Below are positions 5,803-44,906 of a DNA stretch of 54,059 nt, piece after piece. The DNA is from a virus. The stretch's first letter is position 1; each line of letters opens with the position of its first letter. The notes under the pieces are model-generated. The model was given only the letters and a program-made list of their open reading frames with translations, did not search any database and was not told where the DNA came from. The stretch is taken from the IMG/VR virus record IMGVR_UViG_3300033150_000652, positions 1 to 54,059 of that record, one strand, 5' to 3'. The position numbers and the translations under genes are program-made.

Positions 5803-7560
5803 TCACACCTGCGGTTTCTTTCCTGGTACTACGCCTAACGCCTGTTGCATTTGTGTCTTGGGTGCTGGTGCCCCACCCTGCGGGCTGGGTATCTTTGGTG
5901 GCGGTGGCGCACCCTTGCCCGCCTTAGGCATACTCATAGGCAGTCCCCCGCCTGCCATCGTAGCCACCTGTCGTTGGATAATTTGCTGGAACACCTCTTG
6001 TGCTAACGGTAACCATTCCGAGCCCTCCGCTTGCAATGCATCTATAAAGGCGGGTATCATCATCAACGGGTGGCGCAATGCCATCTCCCGCATCTTCTGT
6101 CTCAATTCTTCCTCTGGTTGCTCCACGCCGTAATATCGCTCCATAATGGTGCGGTCGGATAGCACCTGTAACTGCTTGGCTTGTGCACCTATCGTTGCCA
6201 ATCTTGCCTCATCTAGCGGAAGCACCCTGCTTATACTCACATCAATACGCTGTCCCTCTAAGTCTCGCCCCAGCATCTGAATGGCATATGGCTTGCCCTT
6301 AACCTCGCCATAAACGGGGATTAAGGTATCGGGACTGAAATTAGCGCATAAATCGCACATCTTGCGGAATAACACGGATAAACACAATTCCATCTGCTTT
6401 CTTGGAATACCGAGTCTGATACGACCACCTTCCGATAACTGGGACAGGGCATATCCCGATACGCTTCCTGGGCCTTGCCCATACACCGCTTTGGGGAAGC
6501 CCGCTTCTTGCATCTCATCATGGAATATCGTTAACTGTATAGCCATATCAGGCGGAGAGCCAGGCCAGGTGGGAAAACCCACCTCATCCTCTGGGCCTAG
6601 TTCCACCACCTCCCCAATATCGGCATCCACCTCTATAGGCGTAGAGCCCTTATGCATAATCGGCAGGGCAGCATAGACTTTCAGCGCCCTGGCCTGCATG
6701 GACAATAATTTCTCCATCTCCCTTAGGGGGTTCTCTAGGGCAGCCAAGAAACTTAAGCCTGTCCATTCGCCCTTGGGCGAGCCCGTGGGCTTGCAGAAGT
6801 TGATAGTGTAAGGCAAGTCGGTATAGCCAGGCATATGGGTGGGAGGACGTAGAAGTTCTTTCCCCGCAATGATAGTGTTCCAAACCTCGTTGCCTCTGAA
6901 TTCCCAATAATCTATGAAGTCCAGTTCTGTCTTGGCCTTTTGCTTTAGCGACACGTGGTCATATTCTTCTAACGGCCCAAACTCGTCTTCAATATCAAGG
7001 ATGGTACGACGCTGATGATAGATAATCCACTGCCATTTCCTCAACGGGGCCCCAGAGGGCATGGGATAGACATTGGCAGGGTCTATAACCTGCAATACCA
7101 ATGGGCATTCGGGCCAGGCTTCGGGTAGTTCGTCCTCTGGGTCTCGGCGTTCTAATAGTGGCTCCCAATAAGCCCTGAAACAGACCCAACCTTTTACTAG
7201 CATATACCAGAAGGCATCATAGAGAATATCGGTTTCCTGGCGTTCGGAGTTGATGTATAACACGCCCATGAAAAATTTCTCAATCTGTTCGGCAAGGTTG
7301 CGCTGGGCTTCATCCTCAAGGTTGTACACCGAGATTTTGATATTCTGGGCGGCCAGGATACCTGAGGCTATATCTATAATGTTTTGTGGCGTGGATAGGG
7401 TGATACGTTGCTCACTGGGTCTGCGGGGCGTGTCCCAGTGCTCAAGAAAATACAGTTTTTCCATCTTCTCGAACATGGCGTTACGTTTCTCATAGAAATG
7501 ACGCCGTTCAAAGAATTTACCTTTTATCTCCTGTATTATCTCGAAATCGTATTCAGCCAT
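5803..7560 (-). CDS. Portal protein
   Basis: 585 residues, the normal size for a phage portal, the dodecameric ring at the capsid vertex through which DNA is packaged and ejected. The N-terminal third has the familiar portal layout: helical start, RRPSEQRITLSTPQNIIDI, then ILYDAFWYMLVKGWVCFRAYWEP leading to LQVIDPANVYPMPSG. A later stretch, FPKAVYGQGPGSVSGYALSQ, resembles the conserved clip/stem region of several portal families. The last ~60 residues are Pro/Gly/Lys-rich and probably disordered. The ATG has an AGGATAGGA ribosome site. It lies downstream of the large terminase but is separated from it by the tag-sharing cluster. Confidence 0.85.
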   Translation of the reverse strand: MAEYDFEIIQEIKGKFFERRHFYEKRNAMFEKMEKLYFLEHWDTPRRPSEQRITLSTPQNIIDIASGILAAQNIKISVYNLEDEAQRNLAEQIEKFFMGVLYINSERQETDILYDAFWYMLVKGWVCFRAYWEPLLERRDPEDELPEAWPECPLVLQVIDPANVYPMPSGAPLRKWQWIIYHQRRTILDIEDEFGPLEEYDHVSLKQKAKTELDFIDYWEFRGNEVWNTIIAGKELLRPPTHMPGYTDLPYTINFCKPTGSPKGEWTGLSFLAALENPLREMEKLLSMQARALKVYAALPIMHKGSTPIEVDADIGEVVELGPEDEVGFPTWPGSPPDMAIQLTIFHDEMQEAGFPKAVYGQGPGSVSGYALSQLSEGGRIRLGIPRKQMELCLSVLFRKMCDLCANFSPDTLIPVYGEVKGKPYAIQMLGRDLEGQRIDVSISRVLPLDEARLATIGAQAKQLQVLSDRTIMERYYGVEQPEEELRQKMREMALRHPLMMIPAFIDALQAEGSEWLPLAQEVFQQIIQRQVATMAGGGLPMSMPKAGKGAPPPPKIPSPQGGAPAPKTQMQQALGVVPGKKPQV

Positions 7561-7569
7561 ATCCTATCC

Positions 7570-8679
7570 TTACCTTAACTTTAAGGGTATCGGTGTTGGC
7601 ATTACTGGTGGTATATACGGTGCGGGCGTTATTTCGGGCATAATCTGAGGCTCTAAATATAACCAATTTTGTAAATTACTTCTGTTCAGCGTTACCTCTG
7701 GATACTGTGCTGGGGCGTTAAGCAGATAACGCGATTGGTAGAAGGGCCAAGCGCTATAAGGTATTTCCTGCCACGTGGGCCGATTGCCTATCATGCCCTG
7801 CACATAGGCGATATTAGGCCCCTCTGCATATATCTCCCGCCGACCCGTAGGCTCTGGCCCCCGACCGATGATGCTTATGATTTGTCGTGCCAGCCAGGGC
7901 TTCCGTTCATAGAGAGCCTGCGCGACATCCTCGCGAAATTGCCTATATCTATCCCAGTAAGGATTTTCTTCCCAAGGAGCAACCTTAGTCCAAGCACGTA
8001 AGTTTCCCTCCCCACCGAACAGATTTTCCTCCTGTACTTTGTGCCCAAACTCATGGGCTAAAAGCAAATAGGGATTTTCAGGATAGTTATATTCGATAAT
8101 AATACCCCCTTTGGGGATTGTTACCTCCTCGCCACTTAGTGTGTATCCTTTTTGAGTAATGGGTGCGTATCCTCCCGAAGGGCGCAACTCGCCATAGGGC
8201 GGTACATTCATCCATCCCTCAGAACCAGCCTGCATAGCATAGATGGGAGTAACATCAAACATATAATCTATATAATCAGGATTCATCTGAGGGAATATCT
8301 CTTTCATCCGCTCCGCTGTTAACCATTTATCCTCTGGCGTGGCGAGAATAATGGGCGGAGAGCCATATGGTCTTGCTCCTGGAGGCAACATAGGATATTC
8401 TCCCAATATCTCATTGGGCCTCCAATCCTCAAGAAAAACGGTGGGGGTTAGAACATCCTCTTTGCGATATGTAGCCAGGGGAACCGAGAGAGGGAATCCC
8501 CCCGTCGTCAAATCCGCTACTGGGACGCCTGCTATTCTTCGTGGTGGAGTAGAGAGGGGCGGTGGTGTTATTCCCCCAGCAGACGGAAATCCAGGAGGTT
8601 GCGCCCCAGGTTCTTCATACGGCTCTTCCCATTGCGGATGACGTGGTTTGTATCCTCCCTGCTCCGATGGGTCTATCAC
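7570..8679 (-). CDS. Tag-bearing putative zinc metallopeptidase of the virion cluster, 369 aa
   Basis: The protein begins MIDPSEQGGYKP, the same tag as the next two upstream genes. A Pro-rich linker follows, then a folded domain with HEFGH at residues 209-213, a match to the zincin HExxH motif. Further on come acidic helices (FREDVAQALYE, REIYAEGPN) that could supply the third zinc ligand. It sits between the portal gene and its paralogues. It could be a prohead protease, or a protease packaged in the virion to act on the cell envelope during entry. The motif is clear; the exact family and substrate are unknown. Confidence 0.75.
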   Translation of the reverse strand: MIDPSEQGGYKPRHPQWEEPYEEPGAQPPGFPSAGGITPPPLSTPPRRIAGVPVADLTTGGFPLSVPLATYRKEDVLTPTVFLEDWRPNEILGEYPMLPPGARPYGSPPIILATPEDKWLTAERMKEIFPQMNPDYIDYMFDVTPIYAMQAGSEGWMNVPPYGELRPSGGYAPITQKGYTLSGEEVTIPKGGIIIEYNYPENPYLLLAHEFGHKVQEENLFGGEGNLRAWTKVAPWEENPYWDRYRQFREDVAQALYERKPWLARQIISIIGRGPEPTGRREIYAEGPNIAYVQGMIGNRPTWQEIPYSAWPFYQSRYLLNAPAQYPEVTLNRSNLQNWLYLEPQIMPEITPAPYIPPVMPTPIPLKLR

Positions 8680-8682
8680 ATT

Positions 8683-9447
8683 TCACCTCCATTTCCAATA
8701 TAAGGGCAGATGCAATGGTATTATCGTTGGCGTTGGAGTGGGCGTAGCAGTAGGAACAAGGGTGGGTATAAATCGCTCATTTACATCTATCCTGCTAATA
8801 TCCACTGTCGGCCCTGGCGTAGTCGTCGGCGCTACTATTGGCTCCCCACCCCGATATGGATAAAATTTCCCCAAAACACTGTAGTAGGGCATACTTTCTA
8901 TATCGGGATATGCCTGACTAAGATAGGCATAGGCTTCTTCAGGTTGCGCCTCAGGCGGATATTGTTGAATAGTATCCCATATCCATGAGGGCATTCTTGG
9001 GTTACTTGCAATTGCTGGCTCGTAATACTGCTCCCACCCCGAAGGAATGTTTACAGGACGTTGGAAATCTATAACATGAGTAGCCTCGTGAGCCAATGTG
9101 ATTGGAAGGTCTGGGTTGGGATAGGTTAAATCTATAACCCCATGAGGGCCATAACCCTCACCCTCTACGTATAATCCTGTGGGTATTGTGCCTCCCACAC
9201 GAGGCAATCCTTGGTGTAACCTAATAGGCACGTTCTGTCGTAACCAGTTCTGAATTGTGGGGTCAAAGTCGTATGTTTTAAATACCTCTCCCCATAAATC
9301 AGGTGGCACCGTTGGCGTCGGTGGTGGTGTATATGGCAACGGTGTTATGGTTGGTGCGTTGCTGGTAGGTATGGGCCCACCATAGGTATATCGTTCAAGG
9401 AATCCTCGCGGTCGTTTATAGCCACCTTGTTGCGATGGGTCTATCAA
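8683..9447 (-). CDS. Tag-bearing putative zinc metallopeptidase of the virion cluster, 254 aa
   Basis: Second member of the tag family: it starts MIDPSQQGGYKRPRGF and LERYT, then has a Pro/Thr linker. HEATH at residues 120-124 matches HExxH, followed by a helix PEEAYAYLSQAYPD that offers a candidate third ligand Glu. The C-terminus carries a PTATPTPTPT run like the linkers common in Chloroflexota proteins. Only 3 bp separate it from the 369-residue paralogue. Protease activity is inferred from the motif. Confidence 0.75.
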   Translation of the reverse strand: MIDPSQQGGYKRPRGFLERYTYGGPIPTSNAPTITPLPYTPPPTPTVPPDLWGEVFKTYDFDPTIQNWLRQNVPIRLHQGLPRVGGTIPTGLYVEGEGYGPHGVIDLTYPNPDLPITLAHEATHVIDFQRPVNIPSGWEQYYEPAIASNPRMPSWIWDTIQQYPPEAQPEEAYAYLSQAYPDIESMPYYSVLGKFYPYRGGEPIVAPTTTPGPTVDISRIDVNERFIPTLVPTATPTPTPTIIPLHLPLYWKWR

Positions 9448-9456
9448 TTTATCCTC

Positions 9457-10053
9457 CTACCAAGGTATTTCCCCACTGAAACCATAATCTCGCGGGATAA
9501 ACATGTATGGAGGTGGGAATTCACCTTGTGTTGAGAGCATAGGAACCGCCCTAGCGCTCCTGGGGGGCACTCGCAGTGGTGGACGTATACCGACGGGTGG
9601 TGGCCCCACAAAACGCCAATCTATATTGGGTATCCTTGGGGGGGGATATGTCGCTGATAGATTCCTCTCGGCCCAGTCTCTAAAGGGCGCTATCTCTGGC
9701 AGAAAATAATTATATCGTCTAAGGGTTGATAGATTCCTCTCGGCCCAATCTCTGAAAGGTGCCACCCAGTCCCTAAGAGTTTGATAGGGTTGATATACTA
9801 CTGGCAGTTCAGGTGGTTCCAATATCCTCTTGCCTAAACGCCACGCGGGTCTAAGTATAGGGGGAACAGACTGTTCTATCCCAGGTGAATATTGTGGCAG
9901 AAAGTCTAATGCGCCGATATTCCTCCTGGCGAAATCGTGAAAAGGGAAAAGATTGGGCGGAGGCGGAGAGGCGGTATATCTCTCCCTAAATCCCCGCGGG
10001 TATTTCTTTTTCTCTTTGGGTTTATAACCGCCCTGCTCTGAAGGGTCTATCAT
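9457..10053 (-). CDS. Tag-bearing virion-cluster protein without protease motif, 198 aa
   Basis: Third member of the tag family: MIDPSEQGGYKPKEKKK followed by PRGFRERYT, matching the tag of its neighbour. The body is Pro/Arg-rich with an internal duplication (PFRDWAERNLSTLRRYN and PFRDWAERNLSATYPP). No HExxH is present. It may be a structural cargo protein or a degenerate paralogue. The shared tag with different bodies suggests the tag itself has a function. Confidence 0.75.
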   Translation of the reverse strand: MIDPSEQGGYKPKEKKKYPRGFRERYTASPPPPNLFPFHDFARRNIGALDFLPQYSPGIEQSVPPILRPAWRLGKRILEPPELPVVYQPYQTLRDWVAPFRDWAERNLSTLRRYNYFLPEIAPFRDWAERNLSATYPPPRIPNIDWRFVGPPPVGIRPPLRVPPRSARAVPMLSTQGEFPPPYMFIPRDYGFSGEIPW

Positions 10054-10066
10054 TTATTCCTCCTTT

Positions 10067-10612
10067 CTATGCCCCCATTGGCATTCCTGGCCTTATTCCA
10101 CCCATCGGTGGTCTCATTCCTGGCCCCCCACCCATTCCTGGGGGCGCACCTAATCTACCCTGTGCTATCATGCGCATTAGCACCTGAATCCAGGGCCATA
10201 ACTGCGCCCATAGTTGGGGCGGGATATTCGCTGGCGGTGCTGGCATATTGCCCATATTCGGTGGCATAGGGCGCTGGCCCATCATCGTGGGGGGTCGCAT
10301 TCCCATTCCACCCCCAGGGGGCAGTCCAAGAGCAGGCCGAAGCCCCATTCCGCCCACGCCTGCACGCATGGGAGGACGTGCACCCATAGGTGGCCCAGCA
10401 CTTCTCGTTGGAGGCGGTGTGCCCCTCATTGGCGGTCTCATACCCGCAGGAGGAGCCTCCCTTGTTGGGGGCCGTGGTGCGCCTCTTCCTTTCTTCCTAG
10501 GCACCCAGTTGCGCAGATTTTCCTCGTCTCGCTCTTCCTCTTCGTCTCTCTCGCCCTGACGGGCCCAGTTCGCCCATCTCTTTCGTCTCTTGTCCCCACC
10601 TGGATCGTACAT
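10067..10612 (-). CDS. Met/Pro/Gly/Arg-rich low-complexity protein, 181 aa
   Basis: Starts MYDPGGDKRRKR, possibly a diverged form of the MIDPSEQGGYK tag encoded by the three genes downstream. Residues ~14-35 are a charged Glu/Arg stretch; the rest is an unusual Met-Arg-Pro-Pro/Gly repeat with one hydrophobic helix (LWAQLWPWIQVLMRMIAQG). It is compositionally disordered. A good AAGGAGG-type site precedes the ATG. Probably a virion protein; function unknown. Confidence 0.75.
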   Translation of the reverse strand: MYDPGGDKRRKRWANWARQGERDEEEERDEENLRNWVPRKKGRGAPRPPTREAPPAGMRPPMRGTPPPTRSAGPPMGARPPMRAGVGGMGLRPALGLPPGGGMGMRPPTMMGQRPMPPNMGNMPAPPANIPPQLWAQLWPWIQVLMRMIAQGRLGAPPGMGGGPGMRPPMGGIRPGMPMGA

Positions 10613-10915: not shown

Positions 10916-12301
10916 CTAAAAGTTAAACGGACTTCGCCATCGTGCTCTACGTTTCCTCTTGATGATGCCGTAATGGTCTACTAAGGCGTAAATCAGGGCC
11001 TTAATACTATCGCAATATCTATCTATCGGTTTATCGCTGACTGGCTTCCCCTCTTTATCTTTGGGATATTGATACAGCCCGAATTCCTTGAATATTCCCT
11101 TACAAGCAGGATTAAACTTAACCCTGGGCCTTCCATCGGCGGGGTTCTTCAAAAATGTATGTAAAACATATATCCCGTCTTTTATCATCACGGGTCGGGA
11201 TACAACTGGTATGCTCGTTAACGCTGACCAGACTTCAATCGGCGCTTTCCCCGCCTGGGCGTGCTGCCTGCCTCCAAAGTGGCATATCACAATCTTATCT
11301 ACCTTCTTCCACCAGGGCTTTAACTTACAGGCGTAAATTACCTCCTCATGCACCATCTTTTGCAAATACAATTCGTCAATGACTTCCACATCATTGCCAT
11401 AAAACTGCATGGCTAAGCAGGCGTAATAACTTCCACCCGCATCACCCCTGTATCCTGGGTCTATAGCCAGCACAACGTCTTCTTTCTCGTTAAACTTAAC
11501 GTCAAATGATACGTGAGTGGCATAATCGAATTCTGGGAACACGACCGTAGCGGGTGGACAGGGCACGGCACCGCATCTTTCCATGAACATGGCATGGGTG
11601 TACATCTTCTCCAGTTTGATTATCTCTGGGTCTTCTCTACCCCCTGGGTATATCTTGGTATTTGCCCAGGAGGGGATGGAGAAACTTACCCCGCCCTCAA
11701 AGTTATCGCCCTGCCATCTTTTCCATAAATCAACGTACCAGCCGAAACTTCCCTCGAAGGTTCCTATCAATAATAACCAGCCCCGCTTTTCAGCCACCCT
11801 ACCGACTAACCTCAAGTACGTTTCTTCCGTCATCTGGGCAGCCTCGCACATAAGAATCCCATCGGGGGCTTTCGCTGCCAGTTTAACAGGGTCTTCCGCC
11901 GTTTTCGTCTCCAGGGTAACGCCAGTCTTAGTTATTAAAGTACATGGCCCCTGCCTAGGCCAGGAGATAGTCTGTATGTATGCTTCGTGAAACCTCTTCA
12001 GCCATTCCACTACGTAAGTGAATTCTGGCCTTGTTAATTCATATGTCTGCGCTACTAACCAGTATAGCGCTCCTGGGGGAGCAAACAGTATATCTGAGGC
12101 TAACTCCGCTGCCCCACACAAACTCTTTCCCGCTCGCTCTCCCCCAGCAACTAACCTATTCCGCTCATTACATTTATGCACAGGAATCTGACCCTCATGA
12201 GGGTCGTATCCAATCCTATCGAATACACGTAGTTTGTCTTCAAACGAAGCATACATTATCTGCCTGCGAGAAAGGTATCTCTTAATATTGGGGGCGGACA
12301 A
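10916..12301 (-). CDS. terL: Terminase large subunit (packaging ATPase/nuclease)
   Basis: Motor of DNA packaging. From the TTG start at 12301 (461 aa): Walker A GGERAGKS at 53-60, Walker B-like ILMCEAAQ at 149-156 with catalytic E153, and an RNase H-like nuclease domain with the first Asp in VLAIDPGYRGD (D281) and a late acidic motif DRYCDSIKAL (D431). The middle position, where many relatives have a second Asp, reads VICHFGG here. An in-frame ATG at 12256 (MYASFEDKL) is an alternative start. It lies ~1.7 kb downstream of the small terminase, separated by small membrane and zinc-ribbon genes, which is unusually far. Confidence 0.92.
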   Translation of the reverse strand: MSAPNIKRYLSRRQIMYASFEDKLRVFDRIGYDPHEGQIPVHKCNERNRLVAGGERAGKSLCGAAELASDILFAPPGALYWLVAQTYELTRPEFTYVVEWLKRFHEAYIQTISWPRQGPCTLITKTGVTLETKTAEDPVKLAAKAPDGILMCEAAQMTEETYLRLVGRVAEKRGWLLLIGTFEGSFGWYVDLWKRWQGDNFEGGVSFSIPSWANTKIYPGGREDPEIIKLEKMYTHAMFMERCGAVPCPPATVVFPEFDYATHVSFDVKFNEKEDVVLAIDPGYRGDAGGSYYACLAMQFYGNDVEVIDELYLQKMVHEEVIYACKLKPWWKKVDKIVICHFGGRQHAQAGKAPIEVWSALTSIPVVSRPVMIKDGIYVLHTFLKNPADGRPRVKFNPACKGIFKEFGLYQYPKDKEGKPVSDKPIDRYCDSIKALIYALVDHYGIIKRKRRARWRSPFNF

Positions 12302-19960: not shown

Positions 19961-20197
19961 TTATTTTTTCTTTTTCTTGCGCCCTCTCTTGGGCATCTTC
20001 CGAAGCGTCAGCGCAAGCCTCGCCCTTCGCCCAACCTTATCCTTCCGCTTGGCAGCAGCGCGGAGTTTCGACACAGGAATGGGCTTATCTGGTGGCACAC
20101 CCAAATCCTTGTGCAACTGCCCCGGCCTCTTGATAGCGGATTGTATCCACTTCTTCTTGCGGGGCTTACGCTTTGCAGTTGTCCTTTTCCTTGCCAT
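19961..20197 (-). CDS. Small very basic protein, 78 aa
   Basis: Start at the ATG with a GGAGGTGAG site. The core WIQSAIKRPGQLHKDLGVPP then SKLRAAAKR matches a widespread small phage protein of unknown role that I recall near virion genes. N- and C-termini are almost all Lys/Arg. Likely binds DNA or RNA. First gene of the leftward island. Confidence 0.7.
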   Translation of the reverse strand: MARKRTTAKRKPRKKKWIQSAIKRPGQLHKDLGVPPDKPIPVSKLRAAAKRKDKVGRRARLALTLRKMPKRGRKKKKK

Positions 20198-20248
20198 CTC
20201 ACCTCCGGCGGGTTCTATTCGCGCGTATCCCACCCCCCGCCCACATAT

Positions 20249-20277
20249 ATCATACCACAAACTGGAACGAATTGCAA
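20249..20277 (-). promoter_or_regulatory. Leftward island promoter TTGCAA-N17-TATGAT
   Basis: On the minus strand: TTGCAA (20277-20272), spacer 17, extended -10 TGG-TATGAT (20254-20249). The stretch GTTTGTGGTATGATA matches the terS promoter. It lies just before the basic-protein gene and explains how this island is expressed against the surrounding transcription. Confidence 0.75.
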
Positions 20278-20289
20278 AACGAGGATGAA

Positions 20290-20907
20290 ATGAGCAAGAT
20301 TAAAGATTACAAAATGCAACCATGCAATTGGAGTTCCATAGCAGATTTAATTAAACATTATCATTACTTGCATAGGAAACCCGCTTGCATTATGCAATGC
20401 TTTATTCTATTAGACACAGACAACTTAACGCCACTAGGCGCAGCGGTTTTCACTGCTGCCAGATTCCAATATGCTAAGAAGTTCCTTGAGTTCGCAAGGC
20501 TATGGGTAGATGATAGATGCCCACGCAATACCGAAAGTCGCTTTGTGGGTTACTGCCTAAGATACTTAGCCACTCAATACCCCGATTATGAGGGCGTAGT
20601 AACCTGGGCCGACCCGCAACAAGGACATGACGGTACACTCTACAAGGCATGTAATTTTGTATTTGATGGATATAGCCGCCCAGTGTCCCGATATTACAAT
20701 CCCAAAACAAAGAGAATAATATATGAAAAAACAAGAGTTCGTCCGCATTGGGTAAAGGTTGACACCCAACCCCCTAAACTACGATATATATATTATTTTA
20801 ATCCTAAAGTCCGCGAAAATGTGCAACACAAGTTCTCACATTACCACAGTCATAATCATCCCAGCCGCACACAAGGCAAGCACGGCTACAACCCACAACG
20901 CCGATAA
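20290..20907 (+). CDS. Mom-like DNA modification / GNAT-fold protein, 205 aa
   Basis: FARLWVDDRCPRNTESRFVG, YPDYEGVVTWADPQQGHDG and TLYKACNFVFDG follow the pattern of phage Mu Mom and its relatives. Mom-type proteins are GNAT-fold enzymes that modify adenine in DNA (methylcarbamoyl adenine) and protect phage DNA from restriction. Start set at the ATG at 20290 with a GAGG site, because the longer frame runs through the island promoter. A related GNAT role is the alternative. Confidence 0.75.
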   Translation: MSKIKDYKMQPCNWSSIADLIKHYHYLHRKPACIMQCFILLDTDNLTPLGAAVFTAARFQYAKKFLEFARLWVDDRCPRNTESRFVGYCLRYLATQYPDYEGVVTWADPQQGHDGTLYKACNFVFDGYSRPVSRYYNPKTKRIIYEKTRVRPHWVKVDTQPPKLRYIYYFNPKVRENVQHKFSHYHSHNHPSRTQGKHGYNPQRR

Positions 20908-42420: not shown

Positions 42421-43194
42421 TTACTTTACTGGAATAATTAAATCCACATCCATCTCACCAGCGCCGAATTTGGGACTACTCGTGCCGTATTTGCGGTCTA
42501 TCTCCTGCATTTGCTTCTGCACTACTATATCCTCTTGCATGGCTGACAGTACACCCTTGCGCTCCATTGCCTCTTGGCGTCCTAGCGCTCGCAGTTCTAG
42601 TTCCTTTGCAATACTCTCTGGGACTTCGCAAACCACACCCTTGGGAATCGTTACTCTTACTCCCTGATAAGTAAAGTTTTCCCCCGTGGGACTCATATAG
42701 CGCACTTTGCGTTCGCTCTTCAATCTAGCAAGTGTCATCTGCGCTGCTGCCCTGACGTTCAACGCAGCGTTCTTAACGTCTCTGGCAGCCTTAGCCTTGG
42801 CTTTGGCTTTAACGGTGGGGTCTATGCTGTCTAGCCTGTTCCAAATCTCCCTAATTTGGTTGTTCAACGCAGCATCACGGGCTTCTCGTTTCTTCTGCTC
42901 CCGCTCATAGTGCTCCTGCAGTTTCCATATCTGCTCGTTAGTAGCCTGGATGACACGCCCCAACTCTTCCTCTAGCATAGGCTTAAGCAGGAGCACAAAC
43001 TGGAGCATCTGATTATCCGTAGCGGTCGCATACTGCTCCGCCATCGCCTTAAGTGCCTCTGGCTTGTCCACCGTAATGGTGGAACGAGGCTCTTTGGGTT
43101 TATCTGCTAAATCCTTATGCTGCCAGCAATAATCCCCGTGTGTAGCGTTCCTATTACACTGTGTGCCATCAGCCTTAATCGCTTTGCATCTCAT
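42421..43194 (-). CDS. Zinc-finger plus coiled-coil protein, 257 aa
   Basis: Residues 1-27 carry CKAIKADGTQCNRNATHGDY then CWQH, a small finger common in phage proteins. The rest is a long helix with many Ala/Lys/Arg, then YQGVRVTIPKGVVCEVPES and a C-terminal tail. Overlaps the glycosyltransferase gene by 20 bp. It might be a virion or morphogenesis factor; unknown. Confidence 0.65.
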   Translation of the reverse strand: MRCKAIKADGTQCNRNATHGDYCWQHKDLADKPKEPRSTITVDKPEALKAMAEQYATATDNQMLQFVLLLKPMLEEELGRVIQATNEQIWKLQEHYEREQKKREARDAALNNQIREIWNRLDSIDPTVKAKAKAKAARDVKNAALNVRAAAQMTLARLKSERKVRYMSPTGENFTYQGVRVTIPKGVVCEVPESIAKELELRALGRQEAMERKGVLSAMQEDIVVQKQMQEIDRKYGTSSPKFGAGEMDVDLIIPVK

Positions 43195-44029
43195 CTGTTA
43201 ATCCTCCCCATATTTCCTGATGTTTCTTGGCCCAGTTATCCCATGTGAAGTCCGTTAAATCCCTGCGCGGGCCATGTTCTTCAACTAATGCCTCCAATGT
43301 GCCGATTAAATCCTCTGTAGTCCAATACTCAGCACAACCGAAATCCTTAGCAAATCCTATAGGTCTGCTTATGATAGGCACCCCGCATGCTAACGCTTCC
43401 AAAACCCCATGTGGCCCACCCTCGGCATAGGCAAGGCTCAGGTAGTAATCAAACTCCTGTATGTATCGAGGATAGTCCTCGTGCCTTGCTTCGGGCACAT
43501 AGGTTACCCTCACTCCATTTAAGGCCAGTGCGCCGACTATATGATCCCAGCCTGGCCCCACTATAATGAAGTGAAAGGGGCTTAAGTCCATGCGCCAGGA
43601 TAGTTCTATCAGGGTGTATTCACCCTTTCGCCCATTCACATAGGGCCTGCCCGTCAGTCCTATCCGAATGGGCCTGGGTTTAAACATCTTATCAATACCA
43701 GGATACACAACTGTTATCTTTTCTCCTGGTATCCCCAGTTCTATCAGGACATCCTTACTATGCCGAGAGGGGCACATAATGTGTACACATTTACCACATG
43801 CTGCGCGTGCTTTGTCCCCCCAATCTACATTGAGGTGCGTAAACCACATGGTAGCCACCGTAGGCGGGTCGTTATCTATTAGCGGATGCCAGAACAGGTA
43901 ATGGTTAATATCGGCTTCAGGGTCTGGCTTGGTATCTATGGTGATATTGTCCACCCGTTTGGCTATCTCACGAGCATATCGGTCTAGAATCCAGCCCTTT
44001 TCGTTGATGATAATATTAACTTTTGGCAT
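43175..44029 (-). CDS. GT-B fold glycosyltransferase, 284 aa
   Basis: Family GT4-like: CPSRHSKDVLIELGIPGEKI then TVVYPGID, and the donor-binding motif YAEGGPHGVLEALACGVPII with the two Glu residues. It transfers a sugar from a nucleotide-sugar. Shorter than typical (~370), lacking much of the N-terminal acceptor domain. ATG at 44029 with GAGGTGG. It may glycosylate capsid or tail, or change the host surface. Confidence 0.85.
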   Translation of the reverse strand: MPKVNIIINEKGWILDRYAREIAKRVDNITIDTKPDPEADINHYLFWHPLIDNDPPTVATMWFTHLNVDWGDKARAACGKCVHIMCPSRHSKDVLIELGIPGEKITVVYPGIDKMFKPRPIRIGLTGRPYVNGRKGEYTLIELSWRMDLSPFHFIIVGPGWDHIVGALALNGVRVTYVPEARHEDYPRYIQEFDYYLSLAYAEGGPHGVLEALACGVPIISRPIGFAKDFGCAEYWTTEDLIGTLEALVEEHGPRRDLTDFTWDNWAKKHQEIWGGLTDEMQSD

Positions 44030-44906
44030 CACCCACCTCGGCTAGGATTTCCCTCAATTCCTGGATAGCCCCAGCCTCATTGTCACCCTGCCTGCGTAGG
44101 CTTTCTATCTGTTGTTCGATGGTCTTTTGCTGTTCCAGGAGTTTTTTGATTTTTAATTTGATGCCCTCTAACTGCTTCTCGTGTCCTCGTAGTCTTAGTT
44201 CCAAATTCTTTTTGTCCATTTTACCTCCCCTCAGTTTCCATACTTCAAAGAAATATCTTGCCAATGCAATATCCGCTCTCTGCTTCCGATAATGCTCAAA
44301 GCCTATCGGGATGTGCAGAAAGTGTCCACACCTTAAACCACAATCCATCCAGATGTCTATGCCCGCTTTCCGCACGTAGTAACAGAACCTCAAGTCAGCC
44401 CCAATTCTTTTCTGCCCATGCCAGGCTTCGGGCATAGCGCCGTCCATTACGAATGGTGCATCCCCAATGAGTGGCTTCACCGCCTCAAATACCGAACGGT
44501 GCACCAGGAAACAGCCCCAACCTGTAGCCCCTACTTTGATTAGCCCTTCGTCAGGGAAATCTATAAGAGGAAGCATAGGCCAGTTGAAATCGGGGTCATT
44601 CTCATATGCGATGGGAAAGCAAGGATTGAGTTGTCGGCGGAAGTATAATCCGCTTATCGCTTGTTTCTTATGTGAGAGCAATCTCTCTAGTGTATCGGGA
44701 GGGAATTGCATGTCCCCATCCAGATACAGGATGTAATCGTGTTTGCTCTGCAGAAATTGTTCCGTTAGTTGTTGTCTGGATATATCTCCCCTGGAGGAAT
44801 GGCGTAGCATTATCTGGTCTTCGTTGCTTCGACGGATGTTGACAATGCTGGTATATGCCTCCATGTTGGTTATAACCGCTGTCGCTATGCCGATGAAAAC
44901 GCTCAT
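44016..44906 (-). CDS. GT-A fold glycosyltransferase with coiled-coil tail, 296 aa
   Basis: Residues 57-70 read DYILYLDGDMQFPP with the metal-binding DGD (63-65), then ISGLYFRR and DLRFCYYVRKAGIDIWM, typical of GT2-like enzymes. The last ~70 residues form a coiled coil (LRGHEKQLEGIKLKIKKLLE) which could tether it to a virion or partner. Next to the GT-B gene: a two-enzyme glycosylation pair. Confidence 0.85.
   Translation of the reverse strand: MSVFIGIATAVITNMEAYTSIVNIRRSNEDQIMLRHSSRGDISRQQLTEQFLQSKHDYILYLDGDMQFPPDTLERLLSHKKQAISGLYFRRQLNPCFPIAYENDPDFNWPMLPLIDFPDEGLIKVGATGWGCFLVHRSVFEAVKPLIGDAPFVMDGAMPEAWHGQKRIGADLRFCYYVRKAGIDIWMDCGLRCGHFLHIPIGFEHYRKQRADIALARYFFEVWKLRGGKMDKKNLELRLRGHEKQLEGIKLKIKKLLEQQKTIEQQIESLRRQGDNEAGAIQELREILAEVGDAKS

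Follow-up and report, generated by a model that had tools for sequence, protein, structure and literature searches.

A peptide common to the N-termini of three consecutive phage late proteins, two of them predicted zincins, as a possible docking signal

Introduction

The internal proteins of phage T4 have only an N-terminal capsid-targeting sequence (CTS) in common, and this peptide of about 10 residues is sufficient for targeting (PMC9026906; PMC3012670). In phage P1, a reporter enters the head when it bears the first 30 residues of DarB (PMC9024508). In the Staphylococcus phage 80alpha, host Prp removes an NLQFFA peptide from both the scaffold and the capsid protein (PMC9405229). Zincin motifs are also known from phages: the N4 virion RNA polymerase carries HExxH (PMC12633501), and no domain is commoner in phage polyvalent proteins than the zincin, for which self-processing or attack on host proteins has been suggested (PMC5512222).

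Here we describe a phage locus in which a short N-terminal peptide is common to otherwise unlike late proteins, as in T4 IPI, IPII, IPIII and Alt; at 11 residues it has about the length of the T4 signal, and it likewise occurs on several different proteins of one phage. The T4 cargo includes enzymes acting on the host; the cargo here includes predicted zincins. The phage is also of a different type, and no sequence relation to the CTS is demonstrated. The likeness to P1 DarB lies in an N-terminal peptide as the proposed packaging address of a late protein, but the P1 Dar proteins have no common consensus, whereas this tag is common to three proteins. The predicted zincins reside on small separate proteins, in contrast to the giant multidomain proteins of N4 and the polyvalent class.

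The phage genome

The window analyzed is the whole record of 54,059 nt, whose last 114 bases are identical to its first 114. Because of this 114-bp end overlap the genome is complete, circular or circularly permuted, and 53,945 bp long. The late genes, all on the minus strand, continue across the ends of the record, whereas the plus strand holds early genes for a DnaB helicase, a Mom-like protein, an SLT domain and a DNA methylase. The Mom-like DNA modification protein (20173-20907, +) matches PF25680 with an E value of 2e-25. No tape-measure-like gene was found in the genome, and a short-tailed virion is therefore likely.

The capsid protein is a member of PHROG 1357 (phrog_1357); among named phages the closest proteins, at about 40%, are those of Bacillus Pagevirus phages. 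At least four pieces make up the major capsid protein gene (48431-45763, -). It is interrupted by two Rfam group I introns (48394-48203 and 46287-46062) and by an insert that carries a LAGLIDADG endonuclease ORF (47278-46547). For the last piece, 46032-45763, there are matches in 75 related loci. Two late genes between the capsid and tail genes (44016-44906 and 43175-44032, -) look like glycosyltransferases when their translations are read by eye.

The terminase-to-portal block

The interval between the terminase and portal genes holds a gene for an 88-aa zinc-ribbon protein and genes for proteins of 181, 198, 254 and 369 aa. Gaps between genes of the block are 3-36 nt. The main features are:

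10916..12301, minus strand: large terminase subunit (PHROG phrog_2, E 1e-20; 26% identity to the terminase of Arthrobacter phage Wollypog)
10067..10612, minus strand: 181-aa Met/Pro/Gly-rich protein (20% Pro, 11% Met) beginning MYDPGGDK
9457..10053, minus strand: 198-aa Pro-rich tagged protein (MIDPSEQGGYKPKEKKKYPRGFRERYT) with three PFxD[FW]AxRN[IL] repeats, at residues 37, 99 and 123
8683..9447, minus strand: 254-aa tagged protein (MIDPSQQGGYKRPRGFLERYT), TTG start, HEATH at residue 120
7570..8679, minus strand: 369-aa tagged protein (MIDPSEQGGYKPRHP), GTG start, HEFGH at residue 209
5803..7560, minus strand: portal protein, directly downstream of the tagged genes (weak portal profile; 29% identity to a portal-like protein of the relative G001, described below)

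A giant protein of 2,214 aa is encoded between the portal and scaffold genes, across the record ends (3693-1 continued at 54059-50994, -). It has no family match, and it was rejected as an N4-type virion RNA polymerase for having no detectable similarity to N4 gp50.

The 198-aa protein has no match in Pfam, PHROGs, NCBIfam or PADLOC. Its PFRDWAERNLS segment had been called duplicated; the repeat is real, and there are three copies rather than two, one of them diverged (PFHDFARRNIG).

A peptide conserved at three consecutive N-termini

The sequence MIDPS[E/Q]QGGYK is the exact N-terminus of the 198-, 254- and 369-aa proteins, in keeping with the sequence-only reading. Each copy directly follows a strong ribosome-binding site:

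10021..10053, minus strand: tag copy 1, MIDPSEQGGYK, 198-aa protein, ATG start after AAAGGAGGAATAA
9415..9447, minus strand: tag copy 2, MIDPSQQGGYK, 254-aa protein, TTG start after AGGAGGATAAA
8647..8679, minus strand: tag copy 3, MIDPSEQGGYK, 369-aa protein, GTG start after GGAGGTGAAAT

Searched for as degenerate DNA, the tag occurs in the genome at these three sites only, even with 3 mismatches allowed, and has 0 matches in 100 shuffles. When the first 15 residues of 116 possible starts are compared, scores of 63, 47 and 46 are reached by the three tag pairs and 26 by the best other pair. The tag is absent from the scaffold, capsid protein, portal and giant protein of this phage.

The copies differ in 8 nucleotide columns, 7 of which are third codon positions; the remaining one is a first position and accounts for E/Q. 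Such a third-position bias has a probability of about 0.003 (0.0026) in the absence of constraint on the protein. Start codons vary (ATG, TTG, GTG) while the residues of the tag are constant. Since the variation falls on third codon positions and the residues do not change, the tag is conserved as a peptide and not as DNA. The same synonymous drift disfavors a plain DNA duplication or a translation-initiation element as the origin of the shared start.

The proteins behind the tag differ, as had been claimed: the tag precedes Pro-rich linkers on differing bodies, and no likeness was found between the 198-aa body and the other two. With the tag removed, the 254- and 369-aa bodies are weakly alike, at a score reached by 18 of 1000 shuffles. 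The segment PRGFxERYT extends the shared stretch in two of the three proteins. These features bear on a different origin, a tandem duplication of one ancestral gene of which the tag would be the part best preserved; the three proteins would then be diverged paralogs that keep their N-terminus because each, as a minor structural protein, binds a common partner, and the tag would be no modular packaging signal. The head-to-tail arrangement of the genes, the PRGFxERYT extension, the residual likeness of the 254- and 369-aa bodies, and the similar ribosome-binding regions all agree with such a history; a 16-nt ribosome-binding and start segment, AAAGGAGGAATAAATG, is identical ahead of the 181- and 198-aa genes. 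The unlike 198-aa body and the far better conservation of the tag than of any body argue against it, and we consider this origin unlikely while giving it real weight.

Despite the identical 16-nt segment, MYDPGGDK, the start of the 181-aa protein, is not a demonstrated form of the tag. As a peptide MYDPGGDK was rejected as a tag variant: scored against the tag it merely ties for 4th among the 116 starts, which is not above chance.

Candidate zincins among the tagged proteins

The 254-aa protein consists of the tag, PRGFxERYT, a Pro-rich linker, HEATH, a PEEAYA segment and a Pro-rich tail. The 369-aa protein consists of the tag, a Pro-rich linker, HEFGH, the segments REDVAQALYE and REIYAE, and a Pro-rich tail. 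Each has a single HExxH, a motif that arises in 0.3% (254 aa) and 0.1% (369 aa) of shuffles, and just one other occurs among the long frames of the genome, at 19402. A hydrophobic, strand-like stretch precedes each motif (GVIDLTYPNPDLPITLAHEATH before HEATH, GGIIIEYNYPENPYLLLAHEFGH before HEFGH). The candidate third zinc ligand is a Glu in EEAYA of the 254-aa protein and in REIYAE or REDVAQALYE of the 369-aa protein.

AlphaFold models of both proteins have a mean pLDDT of only 34, too poor to confirm a zincin fold. Helices are predicted at EEAYA and REDVAQALYE, and within these low-pLDDT models the helices fit the zincin order. Neither protein has a significant match of any kind in Pfam, NCBIfam, PHROGs or PDB sequences, and Foldseek with the 369-aa model (pLDDT 34) gave no significant match. 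A recognizable peptidase family profile or fold of the gluzincin-like kind was found for neither protein. The description of these proteins as proteases thus stands for the motifs, which are present and rare, and lacks a profile, sequence or structure match to a peptidase fold. At the level of motifs the two proteins are predicted zincin metallopeptidases.

The layout, a strand-like hydrophobic segment, HExxH and a following Glu segment, is alike in the 254-aa protein (EEAYA), N4 (HELVH ... REAYAD) and G001 (HELMH ... VEAFAE). Homology of these zincin segments is not statistically established, as profile comparison did no better than shuffles that keep the HExxH block; the link to N4 and G001 is one of motif only. 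Polyvalent proteins combine several domains in one large polypeptide that is transferred with the DNA, and the two proteins here, of 254 and 369 aa, carry one recognizable motif each.

Relatives of the phage

No true copy of the tag came from IMG/VR, scanned with exact and relaxed patterns, or from GTDB genomes, scanned with the exact one; a single pattern match, in locus L003, is antisense and spurious. The tag was not found in named phages. By tblastn, neither candidate zincin had a match in phages or plasmids, and the tag region had none in phages; single-sequence terminase and portal scans of IMG/VR also returned nothing.

An alignment of the capsid protein retrieved 545 confirmed relatives, 80 of which were kept as loci. 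Among the loci fetched, only L019 (record G001, 53,321 bp) also shares g905 (39%), g363 and g621, and a portal at 29% identity lies further along its contig. A portal-alignment scan added a second relative, L092, which is close kin of G001. Scans with g905 recovered G001 and L092 again, together with a GTDB contig, L097, whose pattern match is probably due to chance.

Neither G001 nor L092 has the tag or an HExxH gene between terminase and portal. Taken formally, absence of the tag from these two, the only relatives found, is the outcome that the sequence-only reading named as refuting its packaging tag, but both are distant, with portals at 27-29% identity and a terminase different from that of the window, too distant for a fair test. 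In G001 a giant protein of 3,600 aa encoded in the same operon has HExxH at residue 2699, whereas the motif is absent from the corresponding 2,214-aa protein of the window. The two giant proteins have short weak stretches in common, the best at window residues 1296-1355 (E 0.009). This distribution suggests that a zincin function built into the giant protein of G001 may instead reside, in the window, on tagged proteins of their own. In G001 the 477-aa protein and the giant protein both start with M-x-FTG, a likeness that is within noise.

The relatives also bear on the possibility that the tagged genes are accessory cargo unrelated to virions, such as intracellular or lysis-time proteases, in which the tag would act within the host cell on translation, protein stability or the formation of complexes. 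Relatives without such genes between terminase and portal, and the lack of a family match for the tagged proteins, are what this possibility would predict. The genes are, however, packed tightly between terminase and portal, and a purely translational role is disfavored by codons that drift while residues stay constant. We regard accessory cargo of this kind as improbable.

Peptides shared by scaffold and capsid proteins

N-terminal peptides of the NLQLFA type are common to the scaffold and capsid protein in many phrog_1357 contigs, and the best scaffold/capsid peptide pairs score above 99.9% of background. Shared peptides were seen in L005, L038, L032, L045, L054, L043, L031, L053 and others. 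Other types in phrog_1357 phages, LKKLHTxMFD and MxFxLFDDxG, look like different solutions.

The NLQLFA-type peptide resembles the Prp substrate motif of 80alpha. Shared N-terminal peptides thus exist on co-assembling head proteins in this capsid family, and processing has to be taken seriously as an alternative role of the MIDPS tag. The tag would then be a signal cut by a phage or host protease in the manner of the 80alpha peptide, which is known to be cleaved (PMC9405229), and the protease could even be the zincins that adjoin it. Such a role is compatible with docking, since the T4 tags are both targeted and cleaved (PMC9026906). The peptides themselves differ, with NLQ(F/L)FA lying on scaffold and capsid proteins and the MIDPS tag on accessory proteins; no copy of the tag is on the capsid protein or scaffold of this phage. 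The tag sequence IDPS[EQ]QGGYK is unlike the Prp motif (D/N)LQ(F/L)F-A and has no known cleavage site. A processing signal is distinctly improbable. As for the T4 type of cleavage, the gp21-type motif [LI]-x-E is absent from MIDPS[EQ]QGGYK, and no gp21-type prohead protease was recognized among the late proteins scanned.

Proposed function

The preferred reading is that the tag is an N-terminal docking or packaging signal on minor virion proteins, analogous to the T4 CTS, with two predicted zincins, comparable to those of ejected polyvalent proteins, among its cargo; we consider it evenly poised between right and wrong. The tag is probably an address label that brings proteins to the assembling head. 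It would recruit a few late proteins rich in Pro, including the two predicted zincins, to a common partner in head assembly, for which the scaffold, the portal and the giant 2,214-aa protein are candidates. The tagged proteins would end up inside the virion or attached to it and would most likely be ejected with the DNA. We infer the binding to an assembly partner, the packaging, the ejection, the zinc binding and the proteolysis. The position of the tag in the terminase-to-portal block fits loading into the virion or procapsid, and its conservation as a peptide and the peptides shared by scaffold and capsid protein in the phrog_1357 family also speak for docking. Counting against docking, no copy of the tag was found in the other phages searched, so that there is no comparative support for a tag that travels between cargoes. 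Its absence from the scaffold, capsid protein, portal and giant protein of this phage and the poor models of the candidate zincins count against it too.

A docking signal working like a capsid-targeting sequence, possibly as a variant of one, is a plausible and partly supported interpretation of these data. We do not assign the tag to the T4 class, since it lacks the cleavage motif of T4 and its role in packaging is an inference. A more specific proposal is made tentatively and is held to be rather less probable than its opposite: that a modular packaging address, whose sequence has no relation to the signals of T4 and P1, loads small stand-alone metallopeptidases into a head of the short-tailed type for delivery to the host. 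In this proposal the metallopeptidases would correspond to the zincin module that other phages carry within their giant packaged proteins.

If the tag does direct proteins into the capsid, it would add to those of T4 and P1 a cargo address defined by sequence, and zincins that are usually buried in giant packaged proteins would here be separate tagged cargo. Whether they process virion proteins or attack proteins of the host would then be directly testable. On the same condition, ejected proteins could be predicted from sequence alone and phage heads could be loaded with cargo.

C-terminal tails of late proteins

Several late proteins end in short C-terminal tails containing Trp or Pro. The tails EIPW, YWKWR, NPRWL, KPWIL and NPLGW have their C-termini at 9457, 8683, 3878, 49170 and 40943 (-), respectively. 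These tails are possibly C-terminal docking peptides.
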